A stretch of DNA of 64,000 nt from Hevea brasiliensis (Eukaryota; Streptophyta; Magnoliopsida; Malpighiales; Euphorbiaceae). The stretch is from positions 94,984,017 to 95,048,016 of the forward strand of contig NC_079501.1 in assembly GCF_030052815.1 (NCBI RefSeq). The letters run 5' to 3'. Under the pieces are notes generated by a model. That model was not told where the DNA came from. It saw only the letters and a program-made list of their open reading frames with translations, and searched no databases. The position numbers and the translations under genes were made by a program. Shown here piece by piece: positions 1 through 47,446 of the stretch (position 1 is its first letter; each line of letters begins with the position of its first letter).

Positions 1-509
1 ATGAACACCTTAGCCGTAGGACTGATTCCCTTAGCTCGGCACAGGCCTCGGAAGGCTACCAAGATCCGCCACGGGTTAGGGTGAACTTGAGCAATGCACA
101 CTCGGTGATATTTTAGGACCTCCTTGAAGAAGTCATCCAGAGGGAACCGAAGACCGGCCTTTAACTGTCCCTCGTATACCATAACCATGTCATTCTCTTC
201 AAAGAAGTGATCGGCTCGGTGATCGCCGTGACACCGGATAAGTTCGTACGAATCAGGACGAATATTGTACTCCTGGCTAAACGATTACAGATCGGATTCT
301 TGCAAGATCGATGGCAGCTCGTCCATAGGAAGATTCTCCCTCCCTAAAGAAGGGGCATGCCTTGATGGTGCGATCCGCCCCCGAGCTGGAACGGAGACCC
401 TAAGAGGTTCTGGTTGTGCGCTTGGCCCGACCACCTCTTCCTCATCAGACGACCACGAGAACTGAATGGAAGGAGGGCTCGTTGCTCTCTGACCTTTGGC
501 GCCGCTCAT
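1..509 (-). pseudogene. Antisense LTR gene, 5' LTR copy (partial, with stop)
   Basis: Same antisense reading frame as in the 3' LTR, with its start codon at 509 on the minus strand. This copy carries a premature stop at 285-287, where a CAA glutamine codon in the 3' LTR copy (ATTGCAG on the plus strand) has become TAA (ATTACAG). The remainder, towards base 1, still aligns with the Transposase_28-like part of the other copy. The C-terminal part lies outside the window. Confidence 0.75.
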
Positions 510-1558
510 TTTCAAAGGAAATACAGAATTTAAACTAAAAAGAAGATCAAAGCCCTTACCGGAGTCTGATCGGCGTCGGAAGAACTTGAGAAAACGAGAG
601 AACTTTGAAGTTGTGAGCAAGAGACTGAAAATGACATACAGGAGCAAATGGCTAACCCCCCACCCCTATTTATACTCGTCCGAGCATTTAATGCTCACGA
701 GGTTCCAGGCAGTGCATCGGTTAGCGGGACTCGCCAGCTGTTCTGACACGTCTCACTCATATTCCTAAGATTCCATAAAGAGATCGGTTAATTATAAAGC
801 GGCAGATCCGGGTGTTTGGAATTACGGATCGGATAAGTGTCATTCAGGTAAAGAATAAGATCGGATAATCATATTAGAGCTCGGAAAATAATTAATAAGA
901 TAATAATTGACAAAATAAAATCTTTATTTCCAAAAGATCGGATTACATCATTTGGGCAATCTCAAGAGATCGGAATACATTTCCAAAAGTCAGATTACAT
1001 AATTTGGGCGATCTAAAGACAGGAATACATTAGAGATCTGATTACATCAAAAGGTCGATCTCTAAAAGATCAGCGGAACATCCTATCTAAAGAGGCCTGT
1101 GTCAATAGTCAACATTGTGACCGATCCAAAGGGGTGTCACCACCGTAACCGAGGCCGCTTAACACCCAATGTGGAGGAAAGCCGCTGTCGGAACACCCAA
1201 TGTGGTGAGAAGTCAAATAAACTTGGAAGAGCAACCGTCAAGGGTCGGCAGAACATCAACAATTTGCTCAGTCAAAATCGGTTCGCCGATTATGCCAGTT
1301 GAACGACTCGAGAACGATACAATCGAGGTCCGCAATCCAGATCGGTTAATTGATTTAGTTCTCTCACCATCATCAGATAAGGTCATCACGATTATTCGAT
1401 CACCAGGGTCATGAGTTTTCAGTCGAGGAACAAAGAAGTCTATCGGAAAGGGTTCAAAAACCACAATCATGGCCGGAACTTCTGTCGAAGCAGCTAGAAC
1501 TGGAAAGTAAGAAGGAAAAGAAGGAAATCGAATGAAGGAAGTTTCTTCTATCAGGGGG

Positions 1559-1566
1559 TATATATA
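1559..1566 (+). promoter_or_regulatory. Second TATA-like motif in the LTR
   Basis: TATATATAGG, conserved in the 3' LTR at 19852-19859. It lies about 600 bp upstream of the better TATA box at 2167. It could be an alternative or cryptic promoter; there is no independent evidence of use. Confidence 0.3.
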
Positions 1567-2166
1567 GGGGGAAATCAAGCATTTATTGCTGAGCAGAAAA
1601 TGAAGCGGACGCTTCGGGAATTGAGGGGAATTAATGCTTTGACCGGACCGGGCCTGGATAAGGGAAGTATTGGAATAATAGAGATCGGAAGAGGGAAGAT
1701 CGGCATGAAAGATCGGAGAAGGACCATGTTGAGAGGATCGAAAAGCAAGAGAGAACAGAAAACGAAAGGGCGCCTACTGCTGTTACCATAATCGGAACCG
1801 AGGTAGTTAAAGCATTGCCAGGTAAAATCTCAACCGCACGCCCCAGAATCGCCCACGTTTCTGACATGCGCTGTACATCCTAATCTCCACCGTTGATCCA
1901 ACTTGTAAGGATGAGCTCAGAGCCCTTGGATCAAAGAGGAAGATGACAAAACCAGCGCCTTTCACTCCTAGCCCTCAGATCCCTCTGGACAAGAGAATTT
2001 GGGACCGTCAGATTAGAAGAAGAAAATGACAAATTTTCTAAAAAGGATCTTAGCCGTCCGTTCTGATCCTCTTTAATGCCTGAGCCTCAGATCATGTCCT
2101 TCGAAATCCTGACCCTCCATCTCCCTCAAAATAGATCCTGACCCTTCATGGGGAGCACCCGGTTCC

Positions 2167-2174
2167 TATAAATA
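2167..2174 (+). promoter_or_regulatory. Sense LTR promoter TATA box (5' LTR)
   Basis: TATAAATA in CCTATAAATACCTGC, conserved at 20460-20467 in the 3' LTR. Transcription would start near 2197, giving an R-U5 leader of about 1.7 kb before the primer site. The purine-rich leader that follows is also conserved. Confidence 0.65.
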
Positions 2175-3142
2175 CCTGCATGAAAACTGTTCAAGGGAGG
2201 AGGGGGAAAAAAAAGAAAGAAGGTTGTTACGATAGTGGAAGAACTCTGAAATTTAATTCAGATTGTTATTCTGCTTTCATAAGAAGAGCTTTTGGAACCA
2301 GTTTCCTGAAGTGTTTTCCTAAAAGATTTTGAACACTGGAACTTTTCATTTGCAGCTCATTATCCAAAGAGCATTCCCATTTTTGATTCTCGGTTATACG
2401 TATTTTTATTTCCATCGTCCATGTTCAATCTCATTTAAACTCGGGTATAATTCTGACTCGATTGCATTTAGTGAAGTACTCTTCGTTCCAAGGCGGACCT
2501 TCGTCTTCTGGCTACCAACTTGCGATTTTATTACGTTCTGTGATTCTGTAGTTAGCTCACTAGATTCGACTTCTTACAGGTCAGTGTTCATATTGCCATT
2601 TTATTTAGTTCTTGTTTTACGTATTTCTTTCTTTTTCTTTCTTTTTCATGCATGTTATTTTCTTTAAGGTCATATCACACTTGAAAATGCAAAGGTAGGT
2701 CGTGCTTCAGTTGGCTTCTGCGTCGGCTAATTCATATTTTTGTTGATCTTTATTATTTTGGAATGCAAGTCATTTAGTCCTGAATAATATATAAGTGGTT
2801 AGGATAAAATAGGTAACTGTATTTTAGGGGTCTCTTTGAAAAAAGAGGGTCTAAATAACACATCAGGGGAAATAGCTAAATTGAATCACTAGGCTAACGT
2901 AGAAGATAGGTCGGCATAACACCATGAGACGGAATAAAGATCAAATCTCAGATGAGTAAAATGGAACAGAGGGAATACTGGTAAGGCGACCACATGGGAG
3001 GTAGGTAAAATTCAGTCCAGCATCCCTTATTTAGTCACAAAGTACCAATAAGTTAAAGGAAGCCTTATTACGACCCTTGGCATCTTTAAATACTAGAACT
3101 CTTAAACTTAGGCTCTTAAGATATATAGCTGTGATCAAATTT

Positions 3143-3550
3143 CGAAGAGATCGGAGGAGAGTTCTTATCCGGTCTCAACTCAAAATTTTAATAAATATTT
3201 AATAGAGATCGAAAGAGAGTTCTTATCCGGTCTCAACTCAAAATTTTAATAAATATTTAATAGAGATCGGAAGAGAGTTCTTATCCGGTCTCAACTCAAA
3301 ATTTTAATAAATATTAAATAGAGATCGGAGGAGGGTTCTTATCCGGTCTCAACTCAAAATTTTAATAAATATTAAATAGAGATCGGAGGAGAGTTCTTAT
3401 CCGGTCTCAACTCAGAATTTTAATAGATATTTAATAGAGATCGGGGGAGAGTTCTTATCCGGTCTCAACTCAAGATTTTAATAAATATTAAAGAGTTCGG
3501 AGAAGAGTTCTTATCCGATTCTTAAATTAAATTTTAATAAAATATTCCTT
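3143..3550 (+). repeat. 58-bp minisatellite in the 5' LTR, about 7 copies
   Basis: Tandem units of about 57-58 bp, each with GAGATCGGAGGAGAGTTC, TTATCCGGTCTCAACTC and an AT-rich tail (TTTTAATAAATATT). About seven units here against about three in the 3' LTR (21437-21560). The last unit is degenerate. Confidence 0.85.
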
Positions 3551-3933
3551 TCAAATAAAATTAACATACAACAATAACTCACTAAGGTTGTCTCATTTAC
3601 TTATGTATCTGGGTGATCCGAATTTAGTGAAAAATTAAAATTTCCTTTTAACAAAAGGATTAACATTTCCATCCGAGCCCTCCTAACTAATTTATGAAGA
3701 ATGCGAAGTTAAATCTACTTGCCCTTATTGAGGGACGAGGTGGGGTGCCTAACACCTTCCCCACCCGTTTACAGACCCCGAACCTAGAATCTCTGTCTTG
3801 AAGTGGTTTCATTTCAATCTATTTTCACAAATGGTTTTCTTTAGTTTCCCACAAAATTAAAGTGGTGACTCCTCACTCTTTCCCACTTCGGTGAGGGTTC
3901 GTTCAGGCGACCGCAAAACTCCTTGCGACAGCT

Positions 3934-4813: not shown

Positions 4814-6709
4814 ATGGCATCCTCGAGTCAGTCGGCAGAAGAAGTTCAAAATGCTAAACTTTGGTCCAAATCAACTCATACTCCAGTACCCCCGCAAAAT
4901 GATGTTTCTAAGGCACATCCTAGCTTACTACCTTCATGGGATCCGAATAAAATTGAGGTCAGAATGAATAGCCTCGAGGGTCTGTCTAATGGTTGGAGGT
5001 CGTTTCCCGATTAGGTCAAGGCACGATTTGAAAAGAAATACGGGAGAATTGCAACCCTAATGCGAGTCAAGGTCCAAACCCCGGTATTAAAGGCCATGCT
5101 ATCAGTTTGGAGTCCTAAGTACGGGGTATTCTCTTTCAATGACATTGATACAGTTCCCACTATGGAAGAATATCAGGCATTACTAGAGATTCCTTACTCA
5201 ACACAGAATCGGATCTACCTACACCTTGAGCATAGGCAGACCTGGAAACGATTAACACATTTGTTGGGTATTCCTTCGAAGGAGGCAAAGTCAAGAGAAA
5301 CTGTCAAAGGAAACACGCATGGATGGTATTGGACCTACCTCAAGAAGTGGTTAGATCAATACCTCCAAGAGAAACAGTGGGATCAAGCTTCAGTAGCACT
5401 CGCATTGGGAATCTATGGCCTGATTTTATTCCCGGGACCATTAGGAATCATAACCTGTAGCACGGTGGAAGTATTCTGGGCGGTGGAAAGGCAGGAGGTC
5501 AATCCGATACCGGCAATTCTTGCGAAGACCTTATTAACCCTTACCTACTGCAGACAACAGGGTAAAGGGTCCATCAAGTGTTGTTCTCAACTGTTATATC
5601 TCTAGATTATCAGTCACATATGCCCTGTGGAGACAAAGGGATTGACTTGGTACCTTGACCAGCCTCCCATCGAGAAGATGACCCGGTTAATAATTAGTCC
5701 GAAGAATGAACAGCAGTGGCGGGAACAGATTTTGAGTTTCAATAGCCATGATTATTGCTGGAGGAAGCTGTGGGTGTCAGGCCAATCCGTTTTGATCAAC
5801 ACGAGAGGTAGTCAGTCGGTGTCCCTGATCGGAGTAACCAGATACACAAGTTACACTCCGGCATTGGTAATGAGGCAGTTTGGCTCAACACAGACCAGAA
5901 TCGACATTGAAGAATACCACCAAGGTCATTTCTACCATGAGCTCAAGGAAGAAGAAGGGTTGAAAATGGCTCGCAGATCCTGGGAAAACATCTCTCTGAT
6001 AGAAAGGTCGCCTAAAGGTCCAAGTGCCACACGCGATTATCTTGAATGGAGGGCTGACAGAGACCGAGAACACTCAACTGTAGAATTCGAAGACAGCGAC
6101 CCTCGCCGAAACGTCCTATTAGAAGAAGCTGATAACCGTCTGGATGACCCATTACAAAAGGCAAATACCGAGAACTCACAACTGCAAGAACAAACAAAAC
6201 AGTTGGAAGACCAACGGCAGCGCCTTAAAAGAAAGGTGAGAAGACTCAGGGAAGAGGCAAGGGCCGAAAAGATAAGGTTCGAAGAGCAGGAAGTACGGTG
6301 GGAAAAGGAAAGAGACTCTCTTCAAGCTGAGGTCAAAGAAATAAAAGTGCAGAATAGTAAGCTTCAGGAAAAGATGAAATACCAAGAGGTACTCGTTGAA
6401 GAGTATAAACAGGAAAACAAAAAGAAGAAGCTCGAATTAAAAGAACAGGCGCTACTCATCAACGATATCTTGAAAGAGTGTGCTAAGGAAAGGAAAGAGA
6501 AAGAAAAACAAGCTGCTCTCTATCAAAAGCTGAAAGAGAATGTTGACCAGCTGGAGAGAACGATAGCATAGGGGAAACAAGAGCTATTACCTGAATCCGA
6601 GTATGCTCTGAAAGCATTCAACCCTGCCAAACAAGAAGAAAGGATATATGAGTATCTCAGAAAATGCCATCTCATTATAAAGAACCTCCCAGAACCTAGG
6701 CCGATGTAA
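4814..6709 (+). pseudogene. Ogre ORF1: plant-mobile-domain-like protein with coiled coil
   Basis: One frame of 632 codons from ATG 4814 to TAA 6707-6709, interrupted by three in-frame TAG codons (5012-5014, 5603-5605, 6569-6571). The N-terminal third has the pattern of the ORF1/DUF7745-like proteins found upstream of gag in Ogre elements (VWSPKYGVFSFNDIDTVPT, then EEYQALLEIP). A variable middle part follows, then a Lys/Glu-rich coiled coil at about 6130-6700. The three stops fit CAG-to-TAG or TGG-to-TAG. The role of ORF1 is unknown; a structural or host-targeting function is a guess. It was intact in the element's recent past, since only point changes break it. The family name is from memory; homology to cotton and legume Ogre ORF1 is clear by pattern. 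Confidence 0.75.
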
Positions 6710-7133: not shown

Positions 7134-8948
7134 ATGGAAGATCAGGAACAAGTACAGAACCTACAGGGGCAAGTCTCCGAGCTGAAAGATCAAGTCTCAG
7201 AACTTATGAGACTAATGAGGGAAATGTCCCAGAATAAACATGCTTCATAACCAAACTTACCATTACCTCTACCACCACCTACAACAAATGATCCGCACCA
7301 AGCTTCAACTTCTTTTACCTTTCAGTCACCTATTCCGGACCCGACAATCACTGTCAATCCGGCTACCATGAATAATGACCTACCTTACTCTCATTACCCA
7401 ACCGTTCCAAACACCAACCCATACCCTTCCATTCTAATCCCTCCAGTTCACTCCACCCCTCATCTCCCAACTGGCGGAGCATTTCATGCAATGGGAGGAG
7501 AAAATAAGACGAGAGAAAATGAGAAACTATCTGCTCTAGAAGAGAGATTGAGAGCGATAGAGGGGCTGAATATGTATGGCTTAGTTGATGTGGCATCACT
7601 TAGATTGGTTCCCGATGTGGTGGTGCCACCCAAGTTCAAGGTCCCTGATTTCGACAAGTACACAGGGAATTCAGATCCTCGCATTCACTTGGCCACCTAT
7701 ATCGCCAAGATGTCTGCTCTGACAGAGGATGACAAACTGCTGGTCCACTTCTTTCATGAGAGCCTCTCCGGGACAGCTTTGAGGTGGTGTATTCAGTTGG
7801 ACAGGAGCAAACTGCGCTCCTGGAAGGATTTAGCTGATGCCTTCTTAAGGCAGTACAAATTTAACTGCGATGTGGCCCCCACAAGGAGGGATCTTCAAAA
7901 CCTGGTGCAGAGGGACAGGGAAAGCTTCAAGGAGTATGCCCAGAGATGGAGAGAAAAGGCGGCAGAAGTACACCCTCCTGGATCGACAATGAGTCATGCT
8001 CTGTTCATTGAGACTTTGAAAGCCCCCTATTTCAATTTGATGATTGGGAACACTTCCAACAGCTTCTCTGACATCATACAGGCCGGTGAAAGAATAGAGG
8101 CCAATCTAAGAATGGGACGGTTGCAGGAGTTGGCTGAGAACCCTGCGAAGAAAACTGCCAGCTTTGGCAAGAAGAAGGAGGGTGATGTGCATTCTGTCAC
8201 CCGTCAAAACAATTATTCCCCATTCCCTCAAAACAATTACTGGCCATGTCCTTCCCCTCACGGCCAAACCATCGCAAATATTCCGCCTCCTTTCCCAAAT
8301 TATCCACACCCGCGCCCACAATATCCCCCACCTACAAATTACCAACCGAGACCACCTCCTCCTCCTGCTCAACCAAGACCACCACAAAATAACCCAAGAC
8401 CCCCAAGAAACCCTGATCCACCTCTTCCCCTCCCACTCAATGAAATATACCGATACCTTGTCGGTATCAACCAAATTGTACCAGTCCCCCTAGACCCAAT
8501 TCAGCCTCCATATCCCAGGTGGTATGATGCCACTGCCCGTTGTGAGTATCATGGGGGAGCACAAGGGCACTCAACTGACAACTGCGGAGCACTCAGAGGA
8601 AGAGTGCACGCTTTAATCCGGAATGGATGGCTAAAAATTGAGGGAAATGGTTCCCTCCCCAATGTTACCTCAAACCCACTGCCTAACCATAATGCTGGCA
8701 GTGGTGTAAATATGATAGAGTCTGATGGAGAAGGATCAACACTGGAAGTAGACAAGCTGGTTCCTTACTTTAAAGAAATTTTTACCGTGGCAATGAGGGA
8801 AGGCTACCTTTGCCCTCAGGTAACGAGATTAGAAGAAGGTACGGGGTGTCCTTATCATGGAGGGGCAGCTGATCATAAGCTGCGGGGCTGTGAGGGATTC
8901 AGGCAAGAGGTTCAGAACTTGTTGTCTCTCAAGGTTCTGAGATACTAG
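7134..8948 (+). pseudogene. gag: gag polyprotein of the Ogre-like element
   Basis: Forms the virus-like particle and binds the element RNA. ATG at 7134 opens with a short Gln/Glu coiled stretch; an in-frame TAA at 7248-7250 (CAA to TAA fits) breaks it, and an open frame resumes through ATG 7368. The Retrotrans_gag domain spans about 7640-7990 (FKVPDFDKYTGNSDP ... LRWCIQLDRSKLRSWKDLADAF). A long Pro/Asn/Gln-rich linker follows at 8200-8520. Two Cys/His knuckles close the protein: CEYHGGAQGHSTDNC (near 8545) and CPYHGGAADHKLRGC (near 8850). It ends at TAG 8946-8948 in the same frame as protease, only 12 bases before the next ATG, so gag and protease were probably one polyprotein or separated by a read-through stop. 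Confidence 0.88.
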
Positions 8949-8960
8949 ACAAGGTCGAAG

Positions 8961-10676: not shown

Positions 10677-10719
10677 TTTTGAAATCCCCATAACTGCCAT
10701 TACTTCAAGTGATTCTGAG

Positions 10720-12300
10720 GTGGAGCTCACAGAGGAAAGCAATGAAAACGATAAACCTTCCCTCGTGCCTTGTGGAGATGAAACACGCACCATAAACTTA
10801 GGCACGGAAGAAGTAAAGAGGGAACTTAAGGTTGTGGAGAGTGAGGAATTGGGAGATATGATCGGTTTGCTCAGAGAATTCCTAGACGTATTTTCCTGGA
10901 GCTATGATGATATGGTTGGTTTGGACCCCCAGATAGTGGCGCACAAAATTCCCCTAATTCCAGGGACAATCCCGGTAAAGCAGAAGCTAAGAAGAATGAA
11001 TCCTGACACACTGCTCAAGGTTAGGGATGAGGTCAAGAAACAGTACGACGCTGGGTTCATAGAAGTAGTCAAATATCCCCAATGGATAGCTAACGTTGTC
11101 CCGGTAATGAAGAAGAACGGGAAAGTTAGAGTGTGTGTTGATTACAGGGATCTTAATAAAGCAAGTCTAAAAGATGATTTCCCTCTCCCCCACATTGATG
11201 TGTTAGTAGACAATGCTGCGGGATTGGGCAGGTGCTCATGCATTGATGGGGCATCTGGGTACAATCAAATCCCAATGGATGAGGAAGACAAAGAGAAAAC
11301 CGCTTTTATCACTCAATGGGGAGTATTTTGCTATCGGGTCATGCCCTTCGGACTGAAGAATGCTGGTGCCACCTATCAGCGCGCCATGGTCACATTATTC
11401 CACGATATGATGCATAAAGAAGTGGAGGTGTACGTGGATGATATGATCATCAAATCCCGGGGAGAAGAAAGCCATGTGCAGGTACTGAGGAAAGTATTTG
11501 AGAGACTCAGGAAATATCAGTTGAAACTGAACCCTGCCAAATGCATATTCGGAGCTAGGTCAGGGAAATTGTTGGGATTCATAGTGAGCGAAATTGTTGG
11601 GATTCATAGTGAGCGAAAAGGGAATAGAGATAGATCCAGACAAGGTTCGAGCTATTCAAGAGATGCCATCTCCAAGAACAGAAAGGGAGGTGCGCAGTTT
11701 TCTGAGAAAGTCGAACTACATTTCGAGATTTATTTCTAATCTCACTGCCAAAGCTGAGCCTATTTTCAGACTACTCCGGAAGAATAATTCCACCCAATGG
11801 GATTCAGTTTGCCAGGAGGCTTTTGAGAAAATTAAGCAATACTTTACCATTTCACCAAGATTAGTTCCACCTGCAAGTGGAGGCCTCTTATCCTGTATAT
11901 GGCAGTCCAACAGAACTCGATGGGGTGCATTTTGGGACAACATGATGATACCGGCCGAAAGGAGAGGGCTATCTATTACTTGAGCAAGAAGTTCAATGAT
12001 TGTGAGTCAAGATACTCTTTCTTAGAAAAGACTTATCACAGATTAGCTCGACAAAGAAATCGCCTCAAGCACTACATGCTGAATCACAAGACATGGCTCA
12101 TCTCCAGGATGGATCCTATCAAATACGTATTCGAAAGCCCATTCGTACCAGGAAGGATAGCTAAATGGCAGGTCATACTCTCCCAATATGACATAGTCTA
12201 TATGACCCGGAAAGCGGTGAAAGGTAGCGTGATCGCTGATCTCCTAGCAGAAAATCCTATCCAGGATTATGAAGCTCTGGATTTTGAGTTCCCTGATGAG
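10720..12300 (+). pseudogene. Reverse transcriptase and RNase H of the Ogre-like element
   Basis: Copies the RNA into cDNA. RT motifs run in order: KVRVCVDYRDLNKAS (near 11130), FPLPHIDVLVDN, MPFGLKNAGATYQRAM, and the catalytic YVDD at 11431-11442. A perfect 25-bp tandem duplication (11568-11592 and 11593-11617) shifts the frame just after the LLGFIVSE motif. The sequence then continues in frame 2 (11594-11983) and returns to frame 1 from about 11899. The Ty3-type RNase H follows at about 11900-12240 (AIYYLSKKFNDCESRYS ... WLISRMDPIKYVFE). The polyprotein cannot be made as it stands. Confidence 0.88.
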
Positions 12301-12720
12301 CATATTAATGAGGTAGACTGCGAAGAAGAGGGGCCAACCGATGTATGGGAAATGTATTTCAACGGAGCTGTCAATTTGTCTGGTAATGGAATTGGAGCTG
12401 TGTTGATATCCTTGGATGGAAAACATTTTCCGATAGCTGTCAAGTTGAGATTTCACTGCACCAACAACTTCGCGGAATACGAAGCTTGTGTGATGGGTCT
12501 ACAAGCTGCCATCGAAATGAAAATCAGGAAGTTAGAAGTATATGGAGACTCAGCCCTGATTATTTATCAAGTCAAAGGGGAATGACAAACTAAGGATCCT
12601 AAACTAATCCCATATCAGAAGTACTTACTGGAGCTAATTAAGAAATTCGAAGAAATCTCTTTCACTCACCTTAGAAGAGACAAGAATCAATTTGCTGATG
12701 CTTTAGCTACTCTAGCTGTT
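12301..12720 (+). pseudogene. Second (archaeal-type) RNase H of the Tat lineage
   Basis: The extra RNase H acquired by the Tat lineage. Visible are MYFNGAVNLSGNGIGAVLIS (near 12352), CTNNFAEYEACVMGLQAA (near 12460), YGDSALIIYQ (near 12541) and the C-terminal DKNQFADALATLA (near 12679). Two defects are seen. The first catalytic position, normally Asp in F-D-G-A, is Asn (AAC). A TGA at 12583-12585 replaces the Trp expected after GE. Both fit G-to-A changes. Same frame as integrase downstream. Confidence 0.85.
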
Positions 12721-14073
12721 ATGGCTCAAATCGAAGAAGGTCAAATGATTCAGATGTTGAAGATTAAAGCAAGAAGTGAGCCAACGTATTGCTTCATGAT
12801 TGAGGAAGAACCAAACAGTAAACCTTGGTATCATGACATCCTGGTCTACATCAGAACCAGAGAATTCCCTCCAGGGGCCAGCAGAAACGAAAGAAGAATG
12901 ATCCGAAGATTAGCATTGGGATACTTCCCCAGTGGAGGAACCCTATACAAGAGAAGCTCCAACGGCGAATTGTTGAGATGTGTGGATGCAAAAGAAGCGA
13001 AGAAGATCCTTTTTGAGACTCATGAGGGAAATTGTGCAACCCATGCCAATGGGCACATGATGGCTAAGCAAATCATGCGACAGGGATATTTTTGGACCAC
13101 AATGGAAAAAGATTGCATCGAGTATTTCCGAAAGTGCCATAAGTGTCAGATCTATGCCGATCCGATAAATGTGCCACCTCACAAGTTGTTCAACCTCGTC
13201 TCACCATGGCCTTTCGCAATGTGGGGCATCGATGTGATTGGTCCCATCAATCCCAAGGCATCCAATGGGCACAGATTCATCCTTGTGGCCATCAACTATT
13301 TCTCCAAGTGGGTTGAGGCGACATCCTATGCGCACATCACACAGAATACGTTTCTCAAATTTCTCAGAAGCAATATCATCTGCCGGCATGGTATCCCCAA
13401 TAAAATCATCACTGACAACGCCACAAATCTCAATGGTCCAAAGATTCAAAAATTGTGTGATCAATACAAAATCAGACATCTCAATTCCTCCCCATACCGT
13501 CCCCAGATGAATGGAGCGGTGGAAGCCGCAAATAAAAATCTAAAGAGGATAATCCGAAAAATGACAGTCACATATAGGGATTGGCATAATATGCTTCCCT
13601 ACGCTCTTCACGCATACAGGACTTCTGTAAGAACCTCAACCGGGGCAACTTCGTACTCACTGGTTTACGGAATGGAAGCAGTATTACCTGTAGAAGTTGA
13701 AATTCCTTCCCTAAGGATCCTGAAGGAATCAGGGATTGATGAGTCAGAATGGATCCAATCGAGGTTGGATCAGTTAAACTTGCTGGATGAGAAAAGATTA
13801 ACAGCGGCATGTCATGGGCAGTTATACCAGAGGAGAATGGCTAAGGCATTTGACAAAAGCGTTCGCCCACGCGAATTCCAACCCGGGGACCTAGTTCTGA
13901 AGAAAGTACTGCCGAATCAAAATGATCCCCGGGGCAAATGGTCACCAACCTACGAGGGACCCTATGTGGTTAAGAAGGCATTTTCTGGAGGAGCCTTGAT
14001 CTTGACCCACATGGACGATGAAGAGTTTCCAAGGCCTGTGAACGCTGACACCGTCAAGAGATACTATGCCTAA
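12721..14073 (+). CDS. Integrase of the Ogre-like element
   Basis: Inserts the cDNA into the genome. The open frame continues the pol frame to TAA 14071-14073. The HHCC zinc domain is at about 13015-13165 (HEGNCATHANGH ... CHKCQIYAD). The catalytic core is D (13231-13233), D (13414-13416) and E (13522-13524), with exactly 35 residues between the second D and E as in other integrases. The C-terminal GPY-like part is KWSPTYEGPYVVKKAF (near 13945). It ends with YYA, as in many Tat elements, with no chromodomain. The integrase itself looks intact; only upstream pol is broken. No independent start codon is implied. Confidence 0.9.
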   Translation: MAQIEEGQMIQMLKIKARSEPTYCFMIEEEPNSKPWYHDILVYIRTREFPPGASRNERRMIRRLALGYFPSGGTLYKRSSNGELLRCVDAKEAKKILFETHEGNCATHANGHMMAKQIMRQGYFWTTMEKDCIEYFRKCHKCQIYADPINVPPHKLFNLVSPWPFAMWGIDVIGPINPKASNGHRFILVAINYFSKWVEATSYAHITQNTFLKFLRSNIICRHGIPNKIITDNATNLNGPKIQKLCDQYKIRHLNSSPYRPQMNGAVEAANKNLKRIIRKMTVTYRDWHNMLPYALHAYRTSVRTSTGATSYSLVYGMEAVLPVEVEIPSLRILKESGIDESEWIQSRLDQLNLLDEKRLTAACHGQLYQRRMAKAFDKSVRPREFQPGDLVLKKVLPNQNDPRGKWSPTYEGPYVVKKAFSGGALILTHMDDEEFPRPVNADTVKRYYA

Positions 14074-14101
14074 AAAAAATAATTAAAAAAAAGAGAAAAA
14101 G

Positions 14102-14269
14102 TAGGAGTGAAAACCCGAAAGGGCGCTCCTAGCAAAATGTGGGAAAGAGGGTGAAAACCCGAGAGGGCGCCTTCTGCAAAATGAGTGAAGGATGAAAACC
14201 CGAAAGGGCATCCTGAAAAAGTGAGTTAAAAAAAAAAAATCTAGGGGTGAAAACCCGCAAGGGCATCCC
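14102..14269 (+). other. Hairpin array 1 (four GNRA-capped RNA-like hairpins)
   Basis: Begins about 28 bases after the integrase stop. Four units at 14102-14131, 14146-14175, 14189-14214 and 14244-14269. Each has a lower stem, AAAA on the 5' side, CCC, a GNRA loop and GGG. The lower stems differ (AGGAGTG/CGCTCCT, GAGGGTG/CGCCTTC, AGGATG/CATCCT, GGGGTG/CATCCC) yet all pair, with G-U wobbles. Loops are GAAA, GAGA, GAAA and GCAA. Confidence 0.75.
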
Positions 14270-14657
14270 AAGAACCAAAAGGGAGAAATATGGAAAGAAG
14301 CATGAGACCAAGAAGGGAAATAAACCGTCATAAGGCTTCAGCGAATTTGAAATAATGGCAGTTAAGAGATTCCAAAGCCAGCCACAAGGAATATGTGAGA
14401 TCTATCCTTGTACCCTTCTTCTTTGAAACTCTATCTTTGTTTTTATTAAAATCGTAATAAAGTCATACTTCATTCCCTATGCTTCTATCTTTCCCTTATA
14501 TTCTTTAACATTATCATTCCGCAATCTCGTTATTTAATGCGCTATTAATCAGTTAAAATTTTTGCCATAAGATTAGGATTTAACAATTGATAACCTCACA
14601 TACTTTACTATGAGATTTGCAGGGAATGACCAGGAAAAGGGTACACAAAAGGAAAAT
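14270..14657 (+). other. 3' untranslated region between the hairpin arrays
   Basis: Non-coding, with no recognised motif. The flanks are a partial duplication: the block 14095-14227 is repeated at about 14716-14848. Confidence 0.5.
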
Positions 14658-14682
14658 AGGGATGAAAACCCGAAAGGGCATC

Positions 14683-14717
<35 letters not shown>

Positions 14718-14902
14718 AAAAGGAGTGAAAACCCGAAAGGGCGCTCCTAGCAAAATGTGGGAAAGAGGGTGAAAACCCGAAAGGGCGCCTTCTGCAAAAT
14801 GAGTGAAGGATGAAAACCCGAAAAGGCATCCTGAAAAAGTGAGTTATTCAAAAAAAAAAAAAAAAAAAAACTAGAGGTGAAAACCTGGAAGGGCGCTTCT
14901 AG
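14658..14902 (+). other. Hairpin array 2 (five more units)
   Basis: Units at 14658-14685, 14721-14748, 14764-14793, 14807-14832 and 14871-14902. Three repeat the array 1 order. The last is the longest: 9 pairs (CTAGAGGTG/CGCTTCTAG) with a GGAA loop on a CCT/GGG stem. The unit at 14807 has lost one upper-stem G (CCCGAAAAGG). A further degenerate unit follows at about 14915-14948. Poly-A runs separate units (14686-14715 and 14850-14870). Confidence 0.75.
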
Positions 14903-15106
14903 TCATATAGACGAAGGGGAAGTGAAAACCCACAACGATGCTTTTCGGGAGAAAGTAAAAAAAAAACAGAAATGGGGCAGTTGAAGAAATGAGGCCATAG
15001 GTCAAGTCTTGCGACTCGTCCTCCATTCATCATCGGCCTTCGGGATTCTGTTAAGTACACTTCATTGGGGAAGAACTTCTTGTGTCCGGATTAGGCTTGC
15101 TTTGTA

Positions 15107-16262
15107 AGTGCAATTTTAAGTTTCCTGTTATCAACCTCTGGTTCCTTGATCTAAGTTGATTTTAATTTCCTGCAATTTAAATTTCCTGTTATCAACCTCT
15201 GGTTCCATGATCTAAGTTGATTTTAATTTCCTGCAATTTAAATTTCCTGTTATCAACCTCTGGTTCCTTGATCTAAGTTGATTTTAATTTCCCGCAATTT
15301 AAGTTTCCTGTTATCAACCTCTGGTTCCATGATCTAAGTTGATTTTAATTTCCTGCAATTTAAATTTCCTGTTATCAACCTCTGGTTCCTTGATCTAAGT
15401 TGATTTTAATTTCCCGCAATTTAAGTTTCCTGTTATCAACCTCTGGTTCCATGATCTAAGTTTATTTTAATTTCCTGCAATTTAAATTTCCTGTTATCAA
15501 CCTCTGGTTCCTTGATCTAAGTTGATTTTCATTTCCCGCAATTTAAGTTTCCTGTTATCAACCTCTGGTTCCTTGATCTAAGTTGATTTTAATTTCCTGC
15601 AATTTAAATTTCCTGTTATCAACCTCCGGTTCCTTGATCTAAGTTGATTTTAATTTCCTTTCCCGCAATTTAAGTTTCCTGTTATCAACCTCTGGTTCAT
15701 TGATCTAAGTTGATTTTAATTTCCTGCAATTTAAATTTCCTATTATCAACCTCTGGTTCCTTGATCTAAGTTGATTTTAATTTCCTGCAATTTAAATTTC
15801 CTGTTATCAACCTCTGGTTCCTTGATCTAAGTTGATTTTAATTTCCTGCAATTTAAAATTTCCTGTTATCAACCTCTGGTTCCTTGATCTAAGTTGATTT
15901 TAATTTCCTGCAATTTAAATTTCCTGTTATCAATCTCTGGTTCCTTGATCTAAGTTGATTTTAATTTCCTGCAATTTAAATTTCCTGTTATCAACCTCTG
16001 GTTCCTTGATCTAAGTTGATTTTAATTTCCTGCAATTTAAGTTTCCTGTTATCAACCTCTGGTTCCTTGATCTAAGTTGATTTTAATTTCCTGCAATTTA
16101 AATTTCCTCTGGTTCCTTGATCTAAGTTGATTTTAATTTCCTGCAATTTAAATTTCCTGTTATCAACCTCTGGTTCCTTGATCTAAGTTGATTTTAATTT
16201 CCTGCAATTTAAATTTCCTGTTATCAACCTCTGGTTCCTTGATCCAAGTTGATTTTAATTTA
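15107..16262 (+). repeat. 61-bp tandem repeat, about 19 copies, in the Ogre 3' region
   Basis: Unit: TTTCCTGTTATCAACCTC, TGGTTCCTTGATCTAAG, TTGATTTTAATTTCC, TGCAATTTAAA. Starts at 15121 and 15182 give a 61-bp period. The first eight or so copies alternate between CCTTGATC/CCATGATC and TCCCGCAA/TCCTGCAA types, forming a dimer of about 122 bp; later copies are uniform. One copy near 16100 is shortened. No protein is encoded. Tandem repeats in this place are common in Ogre elements. Confidence 0.95.
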
Positions 16263-16417
16263 ACTTATGTTGTCGATTTCTAGATCACTAATTTGGATAT
16301 GCTTTAGTTCCCTAACTTCAAGCACTTAATCGTCCAAAATATGGGTCTGAATCTTTACATAATTTTTACACGGGAAATTCTTTTTCCTTTGATAAAAATT
16401 ATGTAAAGAGGGGCAGC
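16263..16417 (+). other. Polypurine tract region before the 3' LTR
   Basis: The polypurine tract AAAGAGGGGCAGC at 16405-16417 abuts the LTR start TGTCGACACC and primes second-strand synthesis. The preceding 140 bases are ordinary untranslated sequence. Confidence 0.8.
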
Positions 16418-17004
16418 TGTCGACACCATATTTTGATCGATCCCCAAAATCAATAAAACTTCGAAACCGATCCCCAGTACTAAGTCTCCCTGTGACAGCT
16501 ATTCACATTTCCGATCCCACTTTGATAGACAGTCACATTTCCGATCTCTCCTCACAAAGAATTGAATCAATGCTAAGTCCTCACATCAGTCAAAGCATTA
16601 CCGATCTCTCAAACCCATTGTCGAATCTCCGGACCAGTCAAGTATATTCCTGATCTCTGTTGACAAATGAAATGAACTGACACTAGATCTTTTCTTACCA
16701 GTTTTATTGCCGATCTCCCTTTCAAAAGTTTAAGAGCTAAGGTTTTGGTCCGGTTTAATGAGGATTCCGGTCTTAAGTGTTCAAGTCAAATTTCCAATTT
16801 TAATCAAGTCCCGTTCAGCATTTCTTCCCTACTGATCTCATGCTTATTGTGCTTTCTGATCTCTTACGCTTAGATTAATAATTGCATTTAGTTCTTGTTT
16901 TGCTATGTTCAGACAATCAAATACTTAGGCAATTCAGAGATTTTCCAATCACATCTAATCATTGAACAAAGGGCAATTTCATTTCATACCAACATTTGTA
17001 CAAG

Positions 17005-18829
17005 TCATTCGGCTGGGGGATCACCCCCAGCCTGATCTACATTTTGCTCATTTTCTCTCTCACCCTCAGCCTCCTCTTCGCTTTCCTCCTCGCCTCCGGG
17101 AGCCAGGTCGGCCATCCAAGAGAAGTCCTCCTCTGGGTAACGCTTCTGGAGCTCGGCCAAGAGGTCCTGGTGAGCATTCACATAAGCACCGGCTATTCCT
17201 GTCACCATCTCTTCATCTTTTGCCTTAAGCTCCTCAGTAAGGTGAGCAACCTGAGCAGCTTCGTTGGCCCGGAGCTCCTGGACTTCTCTAAGAGCATGAT
17301 CCCTTTCAGCCAGAACATGAGTCTGTTCGGCCAGCTTATCCTCATAGTACTTCATGCGCCCCTCAATTTGAGATATGTAATCTTGAGCGGATGAGAGTTG
17401 GGATCGGAGGGATGCCACTTCTTGACTCTTCTTCTCAACCTCCTTACCCAGGCCGTGAGCCTTTTCTCGGACTACGTGCTGATTCACCAGGCACTCTACA
17501 TTCAAACTCATGGATCGGTCGATGTCGCCAAGATTGTCCGAGACAGTCGATCCGATCCTCCCGAAGGCAGATGGAAGACCCCAAGACTTTGGCAAAACCT
17601 GGGTTCTCCCGAACAGTCCGGTTGTTCTCCAGGGAAGCGATCAGCACTTGAGCGCCACGAGAAGGGGGCCTCGCAGAGGTTGAGAACGACCCCCTTCTGT
17701 GCTTGGAGCAACCGGAGGTGGAGGCGCTCTTCTGCCGAGGAGGAGATCGGACAGCTTCTGAGATCGGTGGTCCCGAAGGTCGGGGCGGGTCTCCTCGTAT
17801 CTCCCCAGGTTCATGGCCTGGTGTTTGAAGTAGTGCCGAACGCTTCATCTCTTTTACCTTCCGGGAAATCTCTCTCTTCTTCCGCTTCGAACCCTCACCA
17901 CCCGCCATACCGCACAAAGAAGAGGTCGGTGAGATCGCTAAGGTCCCGAGATCCGAGATGTAGAAAATACCAATGCCGAGGTCGAGAGCGGAAGTTCGCG
18001 ATCTTGGCCTGATCACCGTGGTGGTCCAATGATGCATTTCTCAGCCACCGCATCTAAACAGAGAACTTCGAGTGGCCGCTGATTCTTCGCCCATCACTAT
18101 TAAGCTTTCCTCGTTGCTCGTGGTAATACGCTCGAATCAAGGGCCCTGGTGCCACCAACACGGGGAAGTCCTCAAAGCAGTCGGATTTTTGCTCCTCGTA
18201 ATGAAGAAGCGGTTCTTCCAATTCTTAAGGGAGGAGGGCAGATCGGTAAAGAGCCCACAATGAGGCTTCGCTGAAAAAAAAGGCTCATCGTCCTTTCGGC
18301 GAGTTAGTCTGTGCAGTTCGGCGAACACCTTAGCCGTAGGACTGATTCCCTTAGCTCGGCACAGGCCTCGGAAGGCTACCAAGATCCGCCACGAGTTAGG
18401 GTGAACTTGAGCAATGCACACTCGGTGATATTTTAGGACCTCCTTGAAGAAGTCATCCAGAGGGAACCAAAGACCGGCCTTTAACTGTCCCTCGTATACC
18501 ATAACCATGTCATTCTCTTCAAAGAAGTGATCGGCTCGGTGATCGCCGTGATACCGGATAAGTTCGTACGAATCAGAACGAATATTGTACTCCTGGCTAA
18601 ACGATTGCAGATCGGATTCTTGCAAGATCGATGGCAGCTCGTCCATAGGAAGATTCTCCCTCCCTAAAGAAGGGGCATGCCTTGATGGTGCGATCCGCCC
18701 CCGAGCTGGAACGGAGACCCTAAGAGGTTCTGGTTGTGCGCTTGGCCCGACCACCTCTTCCTCATCAGACGACCACGAGAACTGAATGGAAGGAGGGCTC
18801 GTTGCTCTCTGACCTTCGGCGCCGCTCAT
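17005..18829 (-). pseudogene. Antisense gene inside the LTR (Transposase_28-like domain plus coiled coil)
   Basis: Read on the minus strand. Start chosen at ATG 18829 (MSGAEGQ...): an upstream in-frame ATG at 18967 would lie at or before the transcription start set by the TATA box at 18994. The first 230 residues run to 18137 and contain a pattern typical of Pfam 'putative gypsy type transposon' (PF04195): WFPLDDFFKEVLKYH and QVHPNSWRILVAF. Coding then changes frame near 18165, passes a TAG (about 18050), changes frame near 17960 into a basic segment (GSKRKKREISRKVKEMKR, a likely nuclear signal), and again near 17590 into a coiled coil (17595-17005) ending in an acidic tail. The frame changes may be small indels or short introns. 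Such antisense ORFs are known in Tat elements; function unknown. Confidence 0.75.
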
Positions 18830-18985
18830 TTTCAAAGGAAATACAGAATTTAAACTAAAAAGAAGATCAAAGCCCTTACCGGAGTCTGATCGGCGTCGGA
18901 AGAACTTGAGAAAACGAGAGAACTTTGAAGTTGTGAGCAAGAGACTGAAAATGACATACAGGAGCAAATGGCTAACCCCCCACCC

Positions 18986-18994
18986 CTATTTATA
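18986..18994 (-). promoter_or_regulatory. Antisense promoter TATA box in the LTR
   Basis: Minus strand TATAAATAG (plus strand CTATTTATA). It lies 165 bases upstream of the chosen start of the antisense gene, leaving a leader of about 130 bases. Conserved in the 5' LTR at 666-674. Confidence 0.65.
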
Positions 18995-20459
18995 CTCGTC
19001 CGAGCATTTAATGCTCACGAGGTTCCAGGCAGTGCATCGGTTAGCGGGACTCGCCAGCTGTTCTGACACGTCTCACTCATATTCCTAAGATTCCATAAAG
19101 AGATCGGTTAATTATAAAGCGACAGATCCGGGTGTTTGGAATTACGGATCGGATAAGTGTCATTCAGGTAAAGAATAAGATCGGATAATCATATTAGAGC
19201 TCGGAAAATAATTAATAAGATAATAATTGACAAAATAAAATCTTTATTTCCAAAAGATCGGATTACATCATTTGGGCAATCTCAAGAGATCGGAATACAT
19301 TTCCAAAAGTCAAATTACATAATTTGGGCGATCTAAAGACAGGAATACATTAGAGATCTGATTACATCAAAAGGCCGATCTCTAAAAGATCAGCGGAACA
19401 TCCTATCTAAAGAGGCCTGTGTCAATAGTCAACATTGTGACCGATCCAAAGGGGTGTCACCGACCAGAACCGAGGCGCTGTCGGAACACCCAATGTGGTG
19501 AGAAGTCAAATAAACTTGGAAGAGCAACCGTCAAGGGTCGACAGAACATCAACAATTTGCTCAGTCAAAATCGGTTCGCCGATTATGCCAGTTGAACGAC
19601 TCGAGAACGATACAATCGAGGTCCACAATCCAGATCGGTTAATTGATTTAGTTCTCTCACCATCATCAGATAAGGTCATCACGATTATTCGATCACCAGG
19701 GTCATGAGTTTTCAGTCGAGGAACAAAGAAGTCTATCGGAAAGGGTTCAAAAACCACAATCATGGCCGGAACTTCTATCGGAGCAGCTAGAACTGGAAAG
19801 TAAGAAGGAAAAGAAGGAAATCGAATGAAGGAAGTTTCTTCTATCAGGGGGTATATATAGGGGGAAATCAAGCATTTATTGCTGAGCAGAAAATGAAGCG
19901 GACGCTTCGGGAATTGAGGGGAATTAATGCTTTGACCGGACCGGGCCTGGATAAGGGAAGTATTGGAATAATAGAGATCGGAAGAGGGAAGATCGGCATG
20001 AAAGATCGGAGAAGGACCATGTTGAGAGGATCGGAAAGCAAGAGAGAACAGAAAACGAAAGGGCGCCTACTGCTATCACCATAATCGGAACCGAGGTAGT
20101 TAAAGCATTGCCAGGTAAAATCTCAACTGCACGCCCCAGAATCGCCCACGTTTCTGACATGCGCTGTATATCCTAATCTCCACCATTGATCCAACTTGTA
20201 AGGATGAGCTCAGAGCCCTTGGATCAAAGAGGAAGACGACAAAACCAGCGCCTTTCACTCCTAGCCCTCAGATCCCCCCGGACAAGAGAATTTGGGACCG
20301 TCAGATTAGAAGAAGAAAATGACAAATTTTCTAAAAAGGATCTTAGCCGTCCGTTATGATCCTCTTTAATTCCTGAGCCTCAGATCATGTCCTTCGAAAT
20401 CCTGACCCTCCATCTCCCTCAAAATAGATCCTGACCCTTCATGGGGAGCACCCGGTTCC

Positions 20460-20467
20460 TATAAATA
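20460..20467 (+). promoter_or_regulatory. Sense LTR promoter TATA box (3' LTR)
   Basis: TATAAATA, identical context to 2167-2174. In this copy it could drive read-out transcription into the CACTA remnant and towards the peroxidase gene 5.5 kb downstream. Confidence 0.6.
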
Positions 20468-21436
20468 CCTGCATGAAAACTGTTCAAGGGAGGAGGGGGA
20501 AAAAAAAGAAAGAAGGTTGTTACGATAGTGGAAGAACTCTGAAATTTAATTCAGATTGTTATTCTGCTTTCATAAGAAGAGCTTTTGGAACCAGTTTCCT
20601 AAAGTGTTTTCCTAAAAGATTTTGAACACTGGAACTTTTCATTTTCAGCTCGTTCATTATCCAGTAGCATTCCCATTTTTTCAGTTCCTGGTTATCTGTA
20701 TTTTTATTTCCGTCGTCCATGTTCAATCTCATTTAAACTCGGGTATAATTCTGACTCGATTGCATTTAGTGAAGTACTCTTCGTTCCAAGGCGGACCTTA
20801 GTCTTCTGGCTACCAACTTGCGATTTTATTACGTTCTGTGATTCTGTAGTTAGCTCACTAGATTCGACTTCTTACAGGTCAGTGTTCATATTGCCATTTT
20901 ATTTAGTTCTTGTTTTACGTATTTCTTTCTTTTTCTTTCTTTTTCATGCATGTTATTTTCTTTAAGGTCATATCACACTTGAAAATGCAAAGGTAGGTCG
21001 TGCTTCAGTTGGCTTCTGCGTCGGCTAAATCATATTTTTGTTGATCTTTATTATTTTGGAACGCAAGTCATTTAGTCCTGAATAATATATAAGTGGTTAG
21101 GATAAAATAGGTAACTATATTTTAGGGGTCTCTTTGAAAAAAGAGGGTCTAAATAACACATCAGGGGAAATAGCTAAATTGAATCACTAGGCTGACGTAG
21201 AAGATAGGCCGGCATAACACCATGAGACGGAATAAAGATCAAATCTCAGATGAGTAAAATGGAACAGAGGGAATACTGGTAAGGCGACCACATGGGAGGT
21301 CGGTAAAATTCACAAAGATCCCTTATTTAGTCACAAAGTACCAATAAGTTAAAGGAAGCCTTATTACGACCCTTGGCATCTTTAAATACTAGAACTCTTA
21401 AACTTAGGCTCTTAAGATATATAGCTGTGATCAAAT

Positions 21437-21560
21437 TTAGAAGAGATCGGAGGAGAGTTCTTATCCGGTCTCAACTCAGAATTTTAATAGAGATCGGGGG
21501 AGAGTTCTTATCCGGTCTCAACTCAAGATTTTAATAAATATTAAAGAGTTCGGAGAAGAG
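21437..21560 (+). repeat. LTR minisatellite, short allele (about 3 units)
   Basis: Same 58-bp unit as at 3143-3550 but only about three copies, one with an internal deletion of the AT-rich tail. Confidence 0.8.
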
Positions 21561-21983
21561 TTCTTATTCGATTCTTAAATTAAATTTTAATAAAATATTC
21601 CTTTCAAATAAAATTAACATACAACAATAACTCACTAAGGTTGTCTCATTTACTTATGTATCTGGGTGATCCGAATTTAGTGAAAAATTAAAATTTCCTT
21701 TTGACAAAAGGATTAACATTTCCATCCGAGTCCTCCTAACTAATTTATGAAGAATGCGAAGTTAAATCTACTTGCCCTTATTGAGGGACGAGGTGGGGTG
21801 CCTAACACCTTCCCCACCCGTTTACGGACCCCGAACCTAGAATCTCTGTCTTGAAGTGGTTTCATTTCAATCTATTTTCACAAATGGTTTTCTTTAGTTT
21901 CCCTCAAAATTAAAGTGGCGACTCTTCACTCTTTCCCACTTCGGTGAGGGTTCGTTCAGGCTACCGCAAAACTCCTTGCGACA

Positions 21984-32905: not shown

Positions 32906-32910
32906 ACAGT

Positions 32911-34524
32911 TGATGCACACATTTTGCATAGTCATTTAGGTCTAATTTCATAATCATTTTATTTGGTTATTAGTCATTTTTTTAGCTAATTTCATTAGTT
33001 AATTAGTTAGTTTTCCATAGTTGTCAATTTTGCACTAATTTGTAATTTTTACTTTGTTTTGTAGGAAAAATGGTGTTTTTGAAGGACTAAAGAGAATTTT
33101 GCCATTGAGGAGTGTCTTCTACAGCAAAAAGATGCCAAAAAACAAGTTTTCAAGCTGAAATATGCATTGACCAAACTGTGCATAACTTGCCGCATAAGCT
33201 ATGCAGTTCTGCATAAGGAGGAAGAACACTGCTCGAGAACCGGCGAAATGTGCATAAGGAGACTGCACAGCTTATGCACATTCTCACCTCCCTTATGCAG
33301 ATTCACGAAATTGTGCATAACCTATGCACCAAGTCATGCAGCTTCGCATAAGTAACCCAGAATCAGTGAAATGTGCATAAGGTGATCATAACTTATGCGA
33401 TCCACTTATCTGATCCATAAAGAGTTCATTAATGAGTCGTGAAGATTCCCTTAATGTATTCCTCCTAGAACATACTATTTTAGGGCTCCATGTCAGAAAA
33501 ATGCTATAAATAGTCCCATTTTCTCATTTTAGAGGGGGAGAAAAAGGAGCAAAGGAAGAAAGGAGGAGGCTAAGCAGAATTTGAGGAGTCATTTCACCTT
33601 CCACACCATTTTCAACTAAGATTTGCAGATTTCTTTCTTTCTTTACACTTTTCTACATTTCTAGTGTTTAATTACTTACTTCTTAGCTTAGATTAAAGCT
33701 TTATTTCCATTTAAACTCATCATATCTTGTAAGCATTATGGATAGTGAGTAGTTTACTTTTGATTCTGGAGTAAGGGTTGTAATATTTGAGATATTTTGT
33801 GGATTTTGATTGGGTAATCTATATTTTGTGGTCTTAATGAGTTTTATTCATTTCTTGTATGCTTAATGACATGCTTAATGTAGGATCCCATTGAGTAATG
33901 TTCTTAATCCATGGTTGAAGCACCGAAAGGAGAAGGCCTTGTGATAGATAATCAGGAAATTGGACTTAATTAACTTAGACCTAGAAATAGGCTAAGGATT
34001 AAGAGGATTCATAGATTAATTAAAGAACTTAATGGGTCTTAATTAATTCTAACTCCACGAAAGTAGGATTAGTTTGATTAAGGCACTCTTTGTCTCACTC
34101 GAAAGGGAATTCAAAGGATTTAAGAATTAATCTCCTTAAAACCCATTAGTATCACAAGATTGGATAACCAATTTAAAATCCCAAAATAGCTCGAATATGA
34201 AATCCGAACTCGGAATCGCCTTTTACCATTGTTAATTTCTAATCGAATTTAATCATTTGCCAATTTAAATATTGCCATATTTGAACTTGCTTATTTCTAT
34301 TTGATGCAATTTTAGTTTAATTAATACATTGTTGAATAGAATATTAATTTTGCACATTTAGATTTCACACCCCATTACCCATTAATTCATCATTTTAATC
34401 TCGTAAATACTTCAATTTAGTCAACTTTTATATCGAAAATTCAATCATTAACACAACTCCTCGTGGGATCGATATTTTTCTATACTACTTGTACGACCCG
34501 TGCACTTGCGGTTGGGACGCATCA
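32911..34524 (+). repeat. 5' LTR of Athila
   Basis: 1,614 bp, TG...CA ends. Contains a cluster of TGCATAAG/CTTATGCA motifs (33165-33415), and a likely TATA box in ATGCTATAAATAGTCCC (near 33503). Differences from the 3' LTR are few, clustered at 33230-33440, and mostly single-base indels. Confidence 0.95.
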
Positions 34525-34530
34525 AGTTTT

Positions 34531-37034: not shown

Positions 37035-37046
37035 TATTATTGATGA

Positions 37047-47441: not shown

Positions 47442-47446
47442 ACAGT

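Follow-up and report, generated by a model that had tools for sequence, protein, structure and literature searches.

An ordered array of small hairpins behind the integrase of an Ogre-type retrotransposon of Hevea brasiliensis, and what its RNA may do

The host element and its hairpin array

The window, by which we mean the whole 64,000-nucleotide stretch of Hevea brasiliensis DNA that was analysed, contains the greater part of an LTR retrotransposon some 22.9 kb long. Its 5' LTR (1..3930, + strand) starts about 0.88 kb before the window and its 3' LTR lies at 16418..21983 (+). The two LTRs, about 4.8 and 5.6 kb long, show 111 mismatches in 4,760 aligned columns, and the element has a 5-bp target site duplication, AATAC. 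About 1 kb of the 3' LTR (approximately 16975-18009), partly GC-rich, is absent from the 5' LTR and is probably an insertion. The same LTR contains an antisense ORF with a Transposase_28 (TRP28) domain (18137-18985, -); for Retand elements, the abstract of PMC11963269 reports a TRP28 ORF between pol and the 3' LTR.

Between the LTRs come, in this order, an ORF1 with a DUF7745 domain upstream of gag (5606..6571, +; a Pfam match and an Ogre-like feature), Gag (7251..8948, +; Pfam Retrotrans_gag), a G-patch ORF with a protease-like stretch, reverse transcriptase, RNase H, RVT_3 and integrase. In Pfam terms the order of pol domains is RVT_1, RT_RNaseH, RVT_3, Integrase_H2C2 and rve. The G-patch domain stands behind the protease-like stretch (8949-10676), which recalls the G-patch of betaretrovirus proteases. 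The end of the pol ORF (12586..14073, +) carries the end of RVT_3 and the zinc-binding and core domains of integrase, as called by Pfam, with the stop codon at 14071-14073.

Ogre elements have an extra ORF upstream of gag on the same strand, very long LTRs and a 5-bp target site duplication, and all three are found here. So is an additional RNase H (aRH) between RNase H and integrase, which a passage of PMC6317226 names as a feature of Ogre and Retand alike. The sequence fits an Ogre-type Tat element. Elsewhere in the window, two direct repeats that are 98.7% identical (32910-34525 and 45830-47442) flank another gag/RT region (34966-37958) and are likely to be the LTRs of a second element.

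A reading of the DNA made earlier from the letters alone (the sequence-only reading) had claimed nine hairpin units of one fold just behind the integrase stop. Direct checking of the sequence places the array at 14102-14946. Each unit consists of an 8-bp lower stem, an AAAA on the 5' side only, three further base pairs and a loop of the GNRA type. The claimed place was borne out, with 28 bases between the stop codon and the first stem. All nine units are present as well, to which a decayed tenth has to be added. A duplication (14072-14239 and 14690-14857, 92% identical) has brought units A, B and C into the window twice, and the nine are therefore not independent witnesses.

The units all lie on the + strand, and we give the score of each against model R1 in brackets. 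Unit A, with a GAAA loop, is at 14102..14131 (47 bits); unit B, with GAGA, at 14146..14175 (43 bits, this unit being itself among the 34 sequences of the model); unit C, with GAAA, at 14187..14216 (41.1 bits); and unit D, with GCAA, at 14242..14271 (40.2 bits). After a gap (14272..14656) there is an extra unit with a GAAA loop at 14657..14686 (43.4 bits), ahead of the second copies of A (14720..14749, 44.8 bits), B (14764..14793, 46 bits) and C (14805..14834, 31.8 bits; its loop is GAAAA and its upper stem is weakened). Unit E follows at 14872..14901 (42.6 bits) with a GGAA loop and one U.G in the upper stem, and the decayed unit F at 14917..14946 (11.6 bits). The nine have E values of at most 2.2e-7. 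Unit F, at E 0.89, is not significant alone and scores no better than a chance match at 45062; its lower stem can still pair with the help of G.U, its upper stem is broken, and good copies of it exist in other arrays.

Folded singly, eight of the ten units take the described fold, unit D with one mismatch in the outer lower stem. The second copy of C loses one upper pair and unit F does not form the fold. The stretch of the first four units has a folding z of -4.2. With up to three mismatches allowed, the core TGAAAACCCGNRAGGGC has nine matches in the window, all within 14108-14894, where 0.69 would be expected, and none of 100 shuffles reaches nine. A scan by shape only (AAAA, three standard pairs, a GNRA-type loop of 4 or 5 bases and at least seven of eight lower pairs) gives seven matches on the + strand of the window, every one inside the array, zero on its - strand and zero on both strands of 20 Markov-1 simulations. 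Behind the hairpins, at 15109-16261, lies a 61-bp tandem repeat in 19 copies, an array of the known hypervariable 3' UTR type.

Arrays across the genome and selection for pairing

All array and covariation data come from one plant genome, that of the window (1.88 Gb). It has 8,126 exact cores, and the control with the reversed pattern has none. We compared 46 arrays, namely the window and those found from the first 100 core matches listed (first 31 Mb, contig C1), less one cluster. To be included, a unit had to have an intact AAAA and no more than three core mismatches, and the arms played no part; the conservation of AAAA is therefore partly built in.

In 43 of the 46 arrays an integrase match precedes the first unit found, with 12-95 bases from its end to the AAAA of that unit; the integrase-end DNA of the array-bearing relatives is 71-95% identical to that of the window. 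The recurring order is bipartite: A-B-C-D (cluster I), about 400 bases, and then E-F (cluster II). Spacings in cluster I are mostly 43-45, 41-42 and 41-110 bases, the gap measures 377-587 and the spacing in cluster II is mostly 45-46. A unit is missing or repeated in many of the arrays, and the window itself departs from the plan by its extra unit and the copied A-B-C ahead of E. Among these units, which were selected by core likeness, conservation is 0.858 in the loop and 0.869 in the upper stem as against 0.70-0.78 in the spacers. The spacers are rich in purines. RNAalifold, applied to the 3' region of 19 six-unit arrays, gives -246 as against -147 +- 7 for 20 sets with shuffled columns, in a consensus that resolves the gap poorly.

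Two copies (L020-L023) are without the stretch that matches 10632-14227 of the window, which runs from before the reverse transcriptase to unit D. They keep unit D and the units of cluster II and are possibly non-autonomous derivatives. The homology between these two loci stops at L101:3916.

The flavour of the loop tracks position: A, C and D mostly have GAAA, E mostly GGAA and F mostly GCAA, and unit B often has a loop of five bases.

Such a fixed order of units, with its own loop at each position, is what might be expected if the array served compaction or dimerisation, its GNRA loops and A4 bulges docking with receptors within one element RNA or in another. GNRA loops and A-rich bulges are classic parts of tertiary contacts. 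The A4 bulge and the loop are there in every class of unit, though, which means that the receptor would have to be elsewhere. We consider RNA-RNA docking quite unlikely.

The lower stems were claimed to vary in sequence and still to pair, and this holds against neutral expectation. We used a tree of integrase DNA that covers 41 of the 46 arrays (three without an integrase match and two with too short a match were dropped). On it, 88.3% of lower-stem positions are paired; the neutral value is 73.4% (0.883 against 0.734 +- 0.036), and none of 500 simulations reaches the observed one. The same is true of the number of extra Watson-Crick types (28 against 17.6 +- 2.8; 0/500) and of the excess of G.U over A.C on the sense strand (0/500). 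Double-changed cells of the lower stem number 51 where 29.6 are expected, which 19 of 500 simulations reach. With a tree made from the units themselves (215 distinct units out of 254), pairing is 0.868 against a neutral 0.706 +- 0.050 (0/500) and the asymmetry of G.U and A.C is reached in 3/500. Counted directly in 200 units of 37 arrays, lower-stem positions 2-8 comprise 955 Watson-Crick, 277 G.U, 35 A.C and 133 other cells; the innermost lower pair has no excess of G.U (8 G.U, 11 A.C). A surplus of G.U that A.C does not share, on the sense strand, points to the RNA of the element and not to its DNA.

A single unit can serve as an example. Four stem positions of unit A (3, 4, 6 and 8) have changed on both sides between the window and L019/L030 and still pair. 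Units E and F of L019/L030 look like copies of A and B, and for this reason three of the 15 reconstructed double changes (E3, E6 and E8) may be gene conversion.

When one side of a pair has changed from the paired state, pairing was kept or lost in a ratio of 61:20 on inner branches and 67:72 at the tips (p = 0.0001). Such keeping on inner branches and loss at the tips would be expected if active elements are under selection and dead copies decay. For G.U versus A.C alone, the difference between inner branches and tips is not significant (p = 0.13).

The sequence-only reading had proposed R-scape as a check, and here the outcome is divided. When 215 pooled units are put through an R-scape-like G-test with APC, whose null re-deals substitutions on a tree built from the units, no pair reaches E < 0.05; the best lower pairs have E 2.2 and 2.6. 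Probably the signal is taken up by a tree in which the classes are paralogous, and with so few columns (35) APC is a severe correction; we do not regard this test as support. The neutral simulations along the trees, by contrast, are exceeded. In the upper stem of family 1, as we call the arrays considered so far, no covariation is seen (5 double-changed cells against 7.7 expected).

A second family and the gap between the clusters

Family 2 keeps the head of the hairpin with different arms and different upper stems. A core pattern with CUC/GAG as the upper stem has 217 matches in the genome. Of twelve loci fetched, eight belong to family 2, three resemble family 1 and one is the L018 array again. 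The 326 matches of a second pattern, with G-C adjoining the A4 bulge, were sampled by another 12 loci, which all proved to be family 2; three of these (L097-L099) repeat the arrays of L078-L080. In the best aligned stretch of integrase, family 2 is 38-57% identical to the window. Its arrays, too, begin shortly after integrase; in L079, for instance, the last base of the stop codon is 953 and the first AAAA is found at 971. Three units come first, then a gap, then two more units.

Units of family 2 were accepted with at least six lower and three upper pairs, a filter that the first unit fails in four loci. In the first eight loci 37 units pass it, 31 of them with all eight lower pairs, where Markov simulation would lead one to expect 0.005 strict shape matches. 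On some of the upper stems the loop has five bases, for example GCAAA.

For the upper stem, covariation appears only with the inclusion of family 2 and its subfamilies. The last unit of family 2 was located by its distance from the unit ahead of it, always 51 bases, and pairing played no part in this. Among the 17 family-2 arrays, eight had been retrieved with the CUC/GAG core of this very unit and are biased; the fair set consists of the 12 loci fetched via the preceding unit. In that set the upper stem is CUC/GAG in three loci, UCC/GGA in three, UUC/GGA in two and CUU/GGG in one, three loci are without three standard upper pairs, and all eight lower pairs are present in 10 of 12. Over all 17 arrays, 14 are paired for either stem. 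Genome counts for compensated upper stems are 217 (CUC/GAG) and 203 (UCC/GGA), those for uncompensated ones 23 (CUC/GGA) and 5 (UCC/GAG), with 0, 1, 2 and 0 for the reversed controls; these are counts of related copies and not of independent events. Percentages from alignment A1 are to be taken as upper bounds, since its 34 rows, out of 55 spaced picks among 190 units, were drawn from a set preselected by a pairing filter or, in family 2, by a pairing search.

Primary sequence kept without pairing was one of the outcomes that the sequence-only reading had named as evidence against itself. Within this one genome we find the reverse, stems of other sequence in which the shape is kept. Its further claim, that selection acts on RNA rather than DNA, draws support from family 2, from the excess over the pairing null, from G.U over A.C on the sense strand and from the keeping of pairs on inner branches.

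Could the array be without any function in RNA, a tandem DNA repeat of a small inverted repeat that recombination has multiplied, like the minisatellites of Tat 3' UTRs? The units are homologous to each other and sometimes duplicated (as in 14072-14239 and 14690-14857), the pooled G-test is negative, and passages of PMC3305785, PMC7004042 and PMC11963269 describe such arrays as common in this region. But pairing of DNA leaves the one-strand excess of G.U over A.C unexplained, nor does such a repeat account for pairs that are kept more on inner branches, for an order and spacing that recur over families, or for a family with the same shape in other sequences. An explanation by DNA repeats only is already disfavoured, and we take it to be highly improbable.

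The gap between the clusters in the window contains AATAAAG (14456) and a conserved ATTTGCAG (14615). The latter, which resembles a 3' splice site, is preceded by CTCA..TGAG in a conserved stretch at about 14590-14622. A further conserved stretch, at about 14340-14380, is an inverted repeat around AATAATGGCAGTTAAG.

An array that begins tens of bases past a stop codon might influence termination or stability of the gag-pol mRNA, or the poly(A) site that it uses. AATAAA is found between the clusters in 19 of 20 family-1 fragments and in 8 of 8 family-2 loci. In family 1, however, this is not above chance (the probability is 0.26-0.61 per gap, and the copies are related), which weakens the idea of a poly(A) signal. 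A role in 3'-end or translation control seems to us unlikely.

We also looked beyond this genome. In viral contigs the paired core has no matches, the single cores have 1 (L031, a phage) and 5, and a search with integrase gives three stretches, none of which was confirmed; in genome contigs there are 10 matches. Compared with R1, 14 of the 16 outside seeds match only positions 6-25 or 8-23, L035 matches 5-26, and L039, from a Clostridia MAG, matches all 30. We treat all 16 seeds as chance, L039 with less certainty. Rfam 15 has two matches on 13800-16500 (E 1.6 and 4.7), both on the - strand and far below gathering scores. Five 14-base core strings do not occur in the literature text searched, and titles and abstracts, in a search mostly outside subscription papers, describe no such structure. 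These searches do not contradict the earlier statement that no described structure of this kind is known from Tat elements. The words 'hairpin' and 'secondary structure' are absent from the main text of PMC11963269, PMC7004042 and PMC6317226, and passages of PMC3305785 mention no hairpins.

Possible function and likeness to known systems

Whatever the array does, the comparisons demonstrate, at the level of sequence, a structure that is conserved across families in one genome, with selected pairing, a defined strand and a fixed place behind pol. Several suggestions can be made as to its function. Arms that are free in sequence, and a head in which A4 bulge, short stem and GNRA loop stay constant, suggest a recognition hairpin. 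One small module would be present some six times or more in an intact array, and in it the sequence-free 8-bp stem would present the head, that is the 5'-side AAAA, three base pairs and a GNRA or five-base GNRNA-like loop. Several hairpins in each RNA and the purine-rich spacers suggest that the repeated head could be a multivalent docking site for a partner acting in trans.

The partner may be the Gag of the element itself. The C-terminal third of Gag (8300-8948) has two C-x2-H-x5-H-x4-C motifs, seen by eye in the translation; Pfam does not call them on Gag, and they are not the standard CCHC knuckle. Bound by Gag, the array would mark full-length element RNA for particle assembly. The place, the number of hairpins and the two motifs favour Gag. 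The known packaging signals of LTR elements are usually at the 5' end, which counts against it. If the only intron lies in gag-pol, as in Ogre elements, the array would moreover be present in spliced and unspliced RNA alike and could not tell one from the other. On balance, a cis-acting RNA of the sense transcript that serves as a multivalent docking site, most likely for Gag, and marks full-length RNA for assembly is a reading that we put forward tentatively, at rather less than an even chance. In passages on Ogre elements we find no account of how their RNA is chosen for export or for particle assembly.

Alternatively, the hairpins could be binding sites for a host export factor that takes unspliced, intron-bearing RNA out of the nucleus, in the manner of the M-PMV CTE and the IAP RTE. 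In those elements, as here, the sites are repeated and lie between pol and the 3' LTR. Array and Rfam families show no likeness (best E 1.6), which speaks against a transport element. On the other side, passages of a 2025 review (PMC12786077) note that Medicago Ogre elements have functional introns and that IAP and musD carry the export elements RTE and MTE; by the same passages, no direct study of how LTR-element RNA is exported has been made in plants. An export role is, in our view, rather unlikely; together with 3'-end control it is nevertheless a serious competitor of the Gag reading.

Returning to docking and packaging, we may ask what the arrays would represent more generally. That they are an undescribed and old class of cis-acting RNA in plant Ty3/gypsy elements, found in at least two deeply split Tat families and used as a multivalent handle for packaging or export, has in our opinion a nearly even chance. 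We know of no earlier RNA handle of this sort in this group of plant LTR elements; if correct, this would be the first. The conserved module also shows that selected RNA is encoded behind pol, in a region that has been treated in print as a source of satellites. With a defined recognition head in a conserved module, RNAs of 30 nt would make a small experimental target. The elements concerned can be abundant: according to a passage of PMC7004042, Ogre elements make up 45% of the Lathyrus sativus genome.

There are other systems in which small hairpins have the loop as recognition head on a stem that is largely free in sequence, namely the paired GACG stem-loops of the MLV packaging signals and boxB of lambda, whose GNRA-like loop is recognized by the N peptide. 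Our hairpins are like them in this respect. They differ in that the loops are others and the A4 side bulge is absent from those systems, and the retroviral signals are placed at the 5' end; we claim no homology. If the export alternative is right, the array would work like the CTE of M-PMV and the RTE/MTE of mouse IAP and musD, which are structured RNAs of LTR elements and act in cis; a difference is that the array has no likeness to Rfam families.

A further comparison is with the 3' minisatellites of Tat elements, which occupy the identical region of kindred elements. Tandem repeats behind pol are known, in passages of the respective papers, as the GmOgre/Gmr9 minisatellites (repeats A-E; PMC3305785), as a source of FabTR satellites in Ogre/Tat elements (PMC7004042) and as Retand arrays (PMC11963269). 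GmOgre units measure 26-105 bp and ours about 41-46 bp. The repeats of this region are called family-specific in a passage of PMC11963269 and hypervariable in one of PMC7004042, and for those of GmOgre a passage of PMC3305785 states that no similar sequence exists outside Glycine. The hairpins described here are not specific to one family of elements, the module and its place being common to both families. Tandem repeats behind pol of Ogre/Tat elements were thus already known; what appears to be new is that these are hairpins which stand in a fixed order, recur over families and, to judge from their variation, are under selection for pairing.
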